Below, one piece after another: positions 26,847-33,571 of a stretch of DNA of 64,000 bases. This DNA comes from Pedobacter helvus (GTDB lineage: Bacteria; Bacteroidota; Bacteroidia; Sphingobacteriales; Sphingobacteriaceae): NCBI RefSeq assembly GCF_005925325.1, contig NZ_SRMP01000001.1, positions 992,001-1,056,000 on the forward strand, written 5' to 3'. Positions within the stretch are counted from its first letter, which is position 1; the number at the start of each line of letters is the position of its first letter. The notes under the pieces are model-generated. The model did not search any database, had not been told where the DNA came from, and worked only from the letters and a program-made list of their open reading frames with translations. The position numbers were made by a program, and so were the translations under genes.

Positions 26847-26880
26847 TAAAAAAAAAGCCCCGAGATATCTCTCGGGGCTT
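26847..26880 (-). terminator. Rho-independent terminator of rpsF-rpsR-rplI
   Basis: AAGCCCCGAGA (26855-26865) pairs perfectly with TCTCGGGGCTT (26870-26880) around a four-base loop, with a run of A on the plus strand giving a U-tract on the minus transcript. Confidence 0.92.
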
Positions 26881-31274: not shown

Positions 31275-33098
31275 ATGGAAAATTTTATTGTTTCTGCCCG
31301 TAAATATCGCCCAGCCACGTTTGAAACCGTAGTTGGTCAGCAGCATATTACCGGAACTTTAAAAAACGCCATTAAAAACAACCAGCTGGCGCAAGCTTTT
31401 CTATTTTGCGGACCTCGTGGTGTAGGTAAAACAACCTGTGCCCGTATCTTAGCGAAAACCATTAACTGTACTAGTTTAACTGCCGAGCAAGAAGCCTGTG
31501 GTACTTGCGAAAGCTGCCAATCTTTCCAATCTGGACATTCTTTTAACTTTCATGAGCTAGATGCTGCATCTAATAACTCTGTAGATGATATCAGAAGTTT
31601 GATTGAGCAAGTAAGAATACCGCCACAAGCAGGAAAATACAAAATCTATATTATAGATGAGGTTCATATGTTATCTACAAGTGCGTTTAACGCATTTTTG
31701 AAGACATTGGAAGAACCACCATCTTATGCCATATTTATTTTAGCTACCACAGAGAAGCATAAAATATTGCCAACCATTTTATCTCGTTGTCAGATTTTTG
31801 ATTTCAACAGGATACAAGTTGATGATATTTCTAATCACCTAGCTAAAATTGCCGAAAGGGAAAGCATTTCTACCGATAATGACGGTCTACACATCATCGC
31901 TCAAAAAGCGGATGGCGGTTTGCGTGATGCGCTTTCAATGTTTGACCAGATTGTTAGTTACACCAATAGAAATGTAACTTATAAGGCGGTAATTGCCAAT
32001 CTGAACATTTTAGATTACGACTACTATTTTAAGCTAACCGATTTTTTAACCAGCGGTGATGTGAGTAATACGCTCCTACTTTTCAATGAGATATTGAATA
32101 ACGGATTTGATGGTAACAACTTTATCAACGGTTTAGCTGGTCACTTCAGAAATTTATTGGTTGGAAAAGACAATCAGACTATCCAACTTTTAGAAGTAAG
32201 CGAAAATATTAAACAGAAATATCTGGCACAAAGTAATGGCGCTAATTTAGGCTTCATTTTAACGGCACTGAATTTAGCTAACCAATGCGACCTTAATTAC
32301 AAGAATAGTAAAAATCAACGGCTGCAGGTTGAGCTGGCACTCATTAAAATGTGCCACATTCCATCCGTAATACAACTCGCCAACACAGCAACTGACCAAG
32401 ATCAGGATAAAAAAAAAACTTTAGTTAGTTCTGGGCAAACGCAAAGCACAAGGCCGAAAGACCAAAACGAAACAGTAACTGAAACTCCTAAACCTACCGC
32501 TCCAGCATCCGTAGAAAAAAAGGAAGAACCTGCAGTTCCAAAAATAGCACAGACGGTTCCTCCAAAAACAGAGGCGCCAAAAGTGAGCGCAGCACCTACT
32601 TCTCCTATCAAAATACAACCTTTAGCTAAAAATACTGGTGGATCAATGATCCCATCGTTAACAGATTTTAGTAGTGGAAATAATTTAGAGGGAGAAGATA
32701 AAGGACCACAGTATGTTAGTGGGAGTGATACGCAAGCTTTTACCCAAGATCAATTTATGGCAGTTTGGAAACAATGTATTCAAAAGGCGAATGCCGAAGA
32801 CAAAATACATTTGTTTACTTTGCTTAGCAGTAATGAGCCTATTATAGATGGAACAGATATTATCGTTTCCATTGAAAACATAGCACTTGAAAGCACTTTA
32901 CAAGATGAAAAAATTGAGTTGCTTAACTTTATCAGATCGCAACTCAAAAATTTCGATATTCAAATAGTTACTAAACGGATAGAACCGAAACAGAGTAACA
33001 GAATTTACAGCAATAAAGATAAATACGCTTACCTAGTTGAGAAAAATCCGCAATTAGAGGAAATGCGTAAGCGCTTTAATCTAGACCTGTTGCCTTAG
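31275..33098 (+). CDS. dnaX: DNA polymerase III subunit gamma/tau
   Basis: Clamp-loader ATPase, 607 aa from ATG 31275; the longer frame opens at GTG 31269. Walker A GPRGVGKT (46-53), a zinc module (the CGTCESCQSF region), Walker B IYIIDEVHML, sensor ILATTEKHKILPTILSRCQ and the SRC arginine finger are intact. Domain III ends near residue 375, followed by a Lys/Pro/Thr-rich linker (about 380-470) and a tau C-terminal domain. Ten A at 32409-32418 encode Lys379-381 plus the next base; a slip either way meets a stop within a few codons. See findings. Confidence 0.95.
   Translation: MENFIVSARKYRPATFETVVGQQHITGTLKNAIKNNQLAQAFLFCGPRGVGKTTCARILAKTINCTSLTAEQEACGTCESCQSFQSGHSFNFHELDAASNNSVDDIRSLIEQVRIPPQAGKYKIYIIDEVHMLSTSAFNAFLKTLEEPPSYAIFILATTEKHKILPTILSRCQIFDFNRIQVDDISNHLAKIAERESISTDNDGLHIIAQKADGGLRDALSMFDQIVSYTNRNVTYKAVIANLNILDYDYYFKLTDFLTSGDVSNTLLLFNEILNNGFDGNNFINGLAGHFRNLLVGKDNQTIQLLEVSENIKQKYLAQSNGANLGFILTALNLANQCDLNYKNSKNQRLQVELALIKMCHIPSVIQLANTATDQDQDKKKTLVSSGQTQSTRPKDQNETVTETPKPTAPASVEKKEEPAVPKIAQTVPPKTEAPKVSAAPTSPIKIQPLAKNTGGSMIPSLTDFSSGNNLEGEDKGPQYVSGSDTQAFTQDQFMAVWKQCIQKANAEDKIHLFTLLSSNEPIIDGTDIIVSIENIALESTLQDEKIELLNFIRSQLKNFDIQIVTKRIEPKQSNRIYSNKDKYAYLVEKNPQLEEMRKRFNLDLLP
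32409..32418 (+). promoter_or_regulatory. A10 slippery run in dnaX (candidate gamma-forming site)
   Basis: Ten consecutive A follow GAT and precede CTTTAG. One base fewer gives three Lys, Leu, then TAG; one more gives three Lys, Asn, Phe, Ser, then TAG. Either product would be about 382-384 aa: domains I-III without the tau part. This matches the logic of the Thermus thermophilus dnaX transcriptional slippage site. No strong downstream hairpin was seen, favouring polymerase slippage over ribosomal shifting. Confidence 0.6.
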
Positions 33099-33493: not shown

Positions 33494-33500
33494 GGTTATA

Positions 33501-33571
33501 GTATTTAGTATTTAGTATTTAGTATTTAGTATTTAGTATTTAGTATTTAGTATTTAGTATTTAGTATTTAG
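33501..33571. repeat. Tandem repeat (GTATTTA) x10
   Basis: Ten perfect 7-bp units fill 33501-33570, immediately upstream of the acidic-protein gene (start 33493, minus strand), where its leader and possibly promoter should be. Perfect short tandem repeats are prone to copy-number change; seven is not a multiple of three but is outside the coding region, so any effect would be on expression. Confidence 0.95.

Follow-up and report, generated by a model that had tools for sequence, protein, structure and literature searches.

The dnaX gene of Pedobacter helvus carries an uninterrupted run of ten A's (A10) just downstream of the part that encodes the clamp-loader domains, and the sequence comparisons described below suggest, with a probability of roughly three in four, that this run is a programmed transcriptional slippage site by which one gene would give both a gamma-like and a tau form of DnaX. 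In the proposed mechanism, the RNA polymerase copying the T10 template would lose or gain A's, resulting in a pool of dnaX mRNAs with several run lengths and in all three frames. The mRNAs with 10 + 3n A's would be translated into tau, and the others would lead to a stop within a few codons, yielding a gamma-like clamp-loader subunit of 382–384 aa that is devoid of the tau tail. A short nascent-RNA hairpin that ends 0–3 nt before the run probably raises slippage in many Bacteroidia.

The dnaX gene of the window and its predicted products

The window, i.e. the whole stretch of DNA that was analyzed, comprises 64,000 nt of contig NZ_SRMP01000001.1, and the features relevant to the proposal are as follows (coordinates of the window).

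31275..33098, + strand: dnaX, DNA polymerase III gamma/tau, 607 aa in the tau form as the DNA reads (NF011531 and Pfam matches)
31275..32369, + strand: clamp-loader domains I–III, residues 1–365, present in tau and in the predicted gamma-like form (match to DNA_pol3_gamma3 up to residue 365)
32392..32405, + strand: inverted repeat CTGA-N6-TCAG upstream of the A10 run and 3 nt away from it, a candidate hairpin of the nascent RNA (class-wide hairpin excess at the same position)
32409..32418, + strand: A10 run, predicted slippage site, codons 379–381 (run of at least nine in 339 of 381 distinct junctions)
32422..32424, + strand: TAG of the frame entered when the run has one A fewer or two more, ...KKKL-stop
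32426..32428, + strand: TAG of the frame entered when the run has one A more or two fewer, or by a −1 ribosomal shift, ...KKKNFS-stop
32419..33095, + strand: linker and C-terminal tau-specific part, made only if the frame is kept (NF011531 covers residues 1–605)

In a profile search, NF011531 matched residues 1–605 of the product with 871.6 bits against a curated cut-off of 685, identifying it as a full-length DnaX gamma/tau, and Pfam matches were found to AAA+, the lid and domain III, the last of these (DNA_pol3_gamma3) spanning residues 246–365. The end of this match agrees with the initial annotation, which had placed the run where clamp-loader domains I–III end. Downstream of domain III, the DNA consists of GATCAGGAT, the ten A's and CTTTAGTTAGT, with GAT directly 5' of the run; counted from the ATG at 31275, the ten A's occupy codons 379–381, as had been claimed, together with the first base of codon 382. 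The two truncated endings that the initial annotation had derived, KKKL upon loss of one A and KKKNFS upon gain of one, are indeed those dictated by the two TAG codons, and the corresponding products are computed at 382 aa and 42.6 kDa and at 384 aa and 42.9 kDa, respectively, the tau form being 67.6 kDa. It had also been stated that no other coding run in the window reaches ten A's, which is correct, and that the next has about eight, which is not, as the runner-up is an A9 at 26848–26856, located between predicted ORFs. Next to the ORF that is convergent with dnaX, positions 33499–33571 form a perfect tandem repeat, (TAGTATT)x10.4.

The whole 4.62 Mb genome contains 12 runs of exactly ten A or T (only exact tens were counted), and the one in dnaX is alone in lying well inside a long open frame and away from its start. 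Of the remaining eleven, eight are in no ORF of 100 aa or more, and three are found at codon 2 (504-aa ORF), around codon 5 (348-aa ORF) and close to the end of a 137-aa ORF that is itself doubtful, respectively. The one at codon 2 (L458, C5:96605) is an A10 right after the ATG of its open frame, where slippage would turn the gene off or make a different start necessary. A9 words are matched four times in the window, compared with 16.8 expected from shuffles. The other open frames of at least 150 aa in 172 fetched loci, 474 kb in total, contain a single A run of at least ten on the coding strand and three A9, together with seven T runs of at least ten and six of nine; the rest of dnaX (304 kb) holds three A runs of at least ten and three A9.

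Conservation of the run, its flanking stops and the frame of tau

The comparison is based on 386 dnaX junctions, 381 of them distinct. Apart from the genome itself, the sources are the genus (109 of the 118 relatives searched), other genera of the family (54 of 57 genomes), other families of the class (109 junctions) and the deeper phylum (31 junctions), the last two with only part of the matched genomes, as well as 77 distinct named Bacteroidota genomes taken from the best 80 of at least 593 matches. Within the genus, G021, G036 and G104 had no usable match and G005, G025, G041, G051, G052 and G058 were left out of the reading; G127, G159 and G174 of the family likewise had no usable match, and three loci (L293, L307 and L310) were dropped because of an unusable N-terminal alignment. 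DnaX-like matches on viral contigs and plasmids, all below 60% identity, were not used. The run was sought between −21 and +210 nt around residue 362, with L010, in which an A10 lies about 300 nt further on, being counted as lacking it.

A run of at least nine A's is present in 339 of the 381 distinct junctions, and in 280 it is exactly ten. In addition to the genome itself, these are all 109 same-genus relatives, all 54 genomes from other genera of the family, 95 of 109 in the class, 17 of 31 in the deeper phylum and 63 of 77 named genomes, whereas the 42 junctions lacking the run are distributed as 14 in the deeper phylum, 14 in the class and 14 named (12 of them Bacteroidales). Over all 386 junctions, the run measures ten in 285, nine in 37, eleven in 19, thirteen in two and twelve in one (344 in total with nine or more), compared with four runs of seven, 38 shorter than seven and none of eight. 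The same-genus relatives have 108 A10 and one A11 (L115). The run, which according to the initial annotation was expected to be kept in close Pedobacter relatives along with the near stops, is thus retained in 109 of 109 genomes read, and the stops on both sides are conserved far beyond the genus. No AAG-containing version of the run was found among the close relatives read, although AAG accounts for 25% of the Lys codons in the same genes. In one relative (L117, from G009), the A10 is present and the tau frame is broken about 66 codons downstream, through either a sequence error or a real lesion.

After reduction to 90% protein redundancy (230 rows), 33, 101 and 55 genes have a run beginning in codon phase 0, 1 and 2, respectively, and with all three phases in use, conservation does not extend to the codon frame. 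At the same redundancy, stops within six codons are found in both non-tau frames in 145 of 182 genes, compared with 12.7% of control positions in the linkers. Taken separately, such a stop is present in 94% of cases in the frame with one extra A and in 85% in the frame with one lost A, against 40% and 33%, respectively, at control positions of the same linkers, and the closer of the two is the one in the frame that a −1 shift would enter (median 1–2 codons vs 4). Other runs of six or more A's in the open frames of the same loci have stops on both sides in only 106 of 792 cases, and in 21.7% of the 60 A8 among them. A −1 ribosomal shift needs only the stop in the one-extra-A frame, and the one that is needless for it, in the one-lost-A frame, is enriched as well; stops in both frames are what slippage in both directions needs.

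The frame of tau relative to the run is itself variable. Among the 339 distinct genes with a run, tau is in frame in the DNA in 274, out of frame in 62, ambiguous in two and broken downstream in one, and 57 of the split genes need one more A and five one fewer. On a FastTree tree of 229 rows, 181 of which have a clear state (134 in frame, 47 out), this state changes at least 28 times. When the count is limited to split genes backed by a nearest relative of like state (30 out of frame), there are at least 16 changes, compared with 28 on average for shuffled labels, which indicates that the state is partly inherited. The split state is common to whole clades (e.g. L248, L249, L276, L277, L280 and L281), so that sequence error is not the explanation throughout. 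It has to be noted that a nearest relative in the same state is lacking for 21 of 59 split genes, including the five with one A too many (A11 in three of them), and some of the 21 may be sequence errors. Such drift of the frame would be easy to understand if slippage, as we infer, is efficient enough for usable amounts of both tau and gamma to be made from either DNA frame.

Folding around the run and competing explanations

The 30 nt directly 5' of the run fold 1.8–1.9 kcal/mol better than dinucleotide shuffles, the corresponding values for segments further 5' and for three segments 3' of the run being 0.1–0.6 kcal/mol. Over synonymous-codon shuffles the 5' excess is 1.4–1.6 kcal/mol (0.2–0.9 in neighboring segments), and with the 3' arm held fixed it is 1.9–2.0 kcal/mol (0.7 in the control segment); as it survives both procedures, it does not merely reflect a Shine–Dalgarno (SD)-like purine stretch. 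The best hairpin has its 3' end 0–3 nt from the run in 103 of 137 genes, compared with 45 of 137 after shuffling, and in a wider fold, pairing is raised above that of shuffles at the three bases that follow the run. On its own, the 5' hairpin is significant in about 27% of non-redundant genes, vs 7–12% in other segments. The excess is present in the genus, family, class and named sets, and there is next to none in the 17 genes of the deeper phylum (−3.4 vs −3.2 kcal/mol shuffled, 12%).

The window's own CTGA-N6-TCAG hairpin (−2.9 kcal/mol, z −0.42) is no better than chance. CTGA and TCAG occupy the same places in 104 of the 109 genus loci with A10, the window's own included, and the codons involved are biased, with CAG used for Gln in 109 of 109 and ACT for Thr in 106 of 109, compared with 56% and 24%, respectively, in other parts of these genes. 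The stem hardly varies within the genus and offers no covariation there. At codon −5 before the run, Asp is written as GAC in 93 of 106 genus loci, compared with 24% of Asp codons in the same genes; GAT at this place would lengthen the stem, which may thus be held short. In the flavobacterial set (n = 23), the full stem with all eight pairs is found in 12 and is missing in some rows (L233, L236, L246 and L051), and two-sided changes that keep a pair are few, with at most two rows at any pair. Given the weak hairpin of the window and the species without one, the hairpin is treated here as a common helper and not as a defining part of the site.

On the 3' side, no excess folding indicative of a stem-loop stimulator was detected in the 30-nt segments, and in the window the 72-nt fold has a z of +0.67; in a 75-nt fold of the window, one pairing bridges the run. 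Anti-SD pairing 5' of the run is near that of shuffles (p ≤ 0.05 in 4–6%) with no conserved SD-like element, and SD-like words occur in 58 of 189 non-redundant genes and in 64 of the 109 genus loci with A10, the window itself having AGGA at 32404–32407.

A minimum of nine A's in any phase, stops on both sides and the lack of 3' folding excess in the 30-nt segments favor transcriptional slippage over a −1 ribosomal shift. The latter model, in which the polymerase is faithful and gamma is made by programmed −1 frameshifting, or by sliding of the ribosome on AAA codons, at A_AAA_AAA, draws on the availability of this heptamer in all three phases of A10, which makes a ribosomal contribution possible, on the closer stop being the one in the −1-shift frame, on the AGGA of the window and on the split genes, 57 of 62 of which have tau in the −1-shift frame, the other five being without a nearest relative in the same state. 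The slippery heptamer A_AAA_AAR is, however, contained in any A9 or A10 run and does not discriminate between the mechanisms; moreover, it needs only seven A's and tolerates AAG, and yet A7 is found in four of the 386 junctions and A8 in none. The conserved stop in the +1 frame is likewise not accounted for, and among the 109 genus loci with A10 the SD-like words (64) are far less constant than the CTGA/TCAG pair (106). A minimum run length of nine, stops in both other frames and the lack of a 3' stimulator in the segments folded count against ribosomal shifting as the main route, which is considered rather unlikely.

Three further explanations dispense with recoding by polymerase or ribosome, and each has a very low probability. 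The run could be seen as encoding a useful Lys patch of the linker, as it supplies about three Lys codons in any phase, with no recoding role for the A's themselves; this is hardly credible given that the run is unbroken by AAG in all 109 genus relatives read, that the stops in both frames are left unexplained and that 62 of the 339 genes would be unable to make tau without a change of frame. An equally slight chance is assigned to a DNA-level contingency tract, in which replication slippage would toggle tau in a form of phase variation. Homopolymers do mutate in this manner, and the single A11 of the genus would fit, but the length is otherwise constant among the 109 relatives, the split states are shared by whole clades and loss of tau should be harmful. 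Finally, gamma could arise by proteolysis, as has been reported for Caulobacter (PMC5009743), or not be made at all, the run being a relic. Some Bacteroidota lack the run and could use another route or have no gamma. This explanation is granted marginally more weight and is still highly improbable, since 339 of 381 junctions have retained the run, most of them together with both stops, and a protease site requires neither AAA codons nor out-of-frame stops.

Relation to known systems and junctions without the run

In the dnaX of Thermus thermophilus, as reported by Larsen et al. (2000; via PMC1088944 and PMC5009743), transcriptional slippage takes place on nine A's, and this type is further marked by mRNAs of heterogeneous run length and a gamma:tau ratio close to 1:1. 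The features of this type of slippage, a coding-strand run of at least nine A's at the gamma/tau junction and near stops in both non-tau frames, are found in the gene studied here, which is also a single ORF and in which gamma is similarly predicted to come from mRNAs whose run length breaks the frame. It differs from that of Thermus in its A10, its phylum, the use of all three phases, the lineages with tau split in the DNA and the class-enriched 5' hairpin, and in that slippage is in this case a prediction. GeneTack (PMC3711429) predicted transcriptional realignment for 12 of 17 dnaX genes that are split in the DNA, nine of which have ten A's, with Chlorobium and Chloroherpeton being named; some of the nine may be Bacteroidota. 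The poly-A at the gamma/tau junction is common to both sets. The GeneTack cluster is, however, described as holding split genes only, whereas tau is in frame in the window and in most of the distinct genes of the present sample, where the site is revealed only by the conservation of run and stops.

In E. coli dnaX, a programmed −1 ribosomal frameshift takes place at A_AAA_AAG with the aid of an upstream SD-like element and a 3' stem-loop (PMC3711429, PMC5009743). The outcome, gamma plus tau, would be the same here and at about the same position of the protein, but the present sites have runs of nine or more, 3' segments without excess folding and two-sided stops. The Roseiflexus insertion element (Penno et al. 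2015; PMC5009743) slips at U5C5 with one-base deletions only and requires a 5' hairpin of the nascent RNA. An inverted repeat immediately 5' of the slippery run would be common to both, although in the present case it is significant over the class and not in the deeper phylum or for the window alone. The two differ in that A10 is predicted to slip in both directions and in that the hairpin in Bacteroidota is common but far from universal. A literature search, which covered little of the subscription literature, found no description of an in-frame A10 in Bacteroidota dnaX, of stops on both sides of it or of a 5' hairpin.

Slippage leading to a truncated product, as in Thermus dnaX, has been described as hard to recognize by comparative analysis (PMC1088944), a difficulty that is overcome by sampling hundreds of genomes, as run length, freedom of phase and two-sided stops jointly mark the site. 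If the proposal is correct, untemplated bases are present in the mRNAs that give part of the replicase in many members of a large phylum, and the 62 split genes of the sample need slippage to make tau at all; annotation may label such genes as frameshifted or truncated. The genus of the window would offer a system in which the need for gamma can be tested by synonymous edits, changing the run to AAGAAGAAG.

A different arrangement is seen in two of the junctions lacking the A run (L043 and L060, uncultured Bacteroidales), where an in-frame TAG stands just after domain III and tau continues in the same frame. In the genus around them, exactly one internal TAG was found in dnaX in 34 of 39 genomes with a match (41 searched), and 31 loci were read (L043, L060 and L411–L439). 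In 28 of these (L060, L043, L412–L427, L429–L433 and L435–L439), the context is TAG-AT(T/A)-GCN-AG(A/G) followed by a short possible hairpin, a pattern that was written after the loci had been seen. GCA is the Ala codon of this context in 26 of the 28 (15% in other parts of these genes), and all 28 with Ile-Ala-Arg at this place use AGR for the Arg, although AGR makes up 8% of Arg codons. Tau runs on for 188–255 codons past the TAG. Of the 225 open frames with at least 150 codons in the loci of this genus, dnaX included, 87 end in TAG, which thus is a normal stop there. A search for the pattern with two mismatches in 20 genomes of the genus returned dnaX in 15 and four other places, with none for the reversed control, and in a 295-genome sample of the order only G430 itself matched, so that the element looks confined to its group. 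The literature search found nothing on this element, and Rfam gave nothing credible at the junction in five loci of the genus. Its likeliest interpretation is programmed UAG readthrough or in-frame bypass, in which termination would give gamma and continuation tau, and it provides a separate hint that both DnaX products are wanted. Within the same genus, L428 and L434 have a different arrangement (CATAGGCTTAGCTAG) with tau apparently in another frame, and L411 (G757) has two dnaX matches, one of them full-length and without an internal stop.

In a broader model, for and against which the odds are about even, a short and a long DnaX are under selection across Bacteroidota and are provided by exchangeable recoding modules at one junction. 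According to it, the module would mostly be A10 slippage, often with a 5' hairpin and so efficient that the frame of tau drifts, and where the run has been lost other signals would take over, above all the conserved in-frame UAG (UAG-AUW-GCA-AGR plus a short 3' hairpin) that would be read through or bypassed in the one uncultured Bacteroidales genus.

Seven other junctions without the A run (L018, L022, L037, L071, L072, L321 and L322, from Bacteroidales and the class) have a GGGC-N3/4-GCCC inverted repeat within about 50 nt after domain III, in L037 with one G-T pair. The residues that it encodes vary, and the repeat could serve as a further RNA signal or belong to a protein motif. In L070, which also lacks the run, a TAA closes the 0 frame about 20 codons past residue 362, with tau being in the +1 frame (GAG TGC TAA AAA), making it a candidate for either a +1 frameshift or a broken gene.
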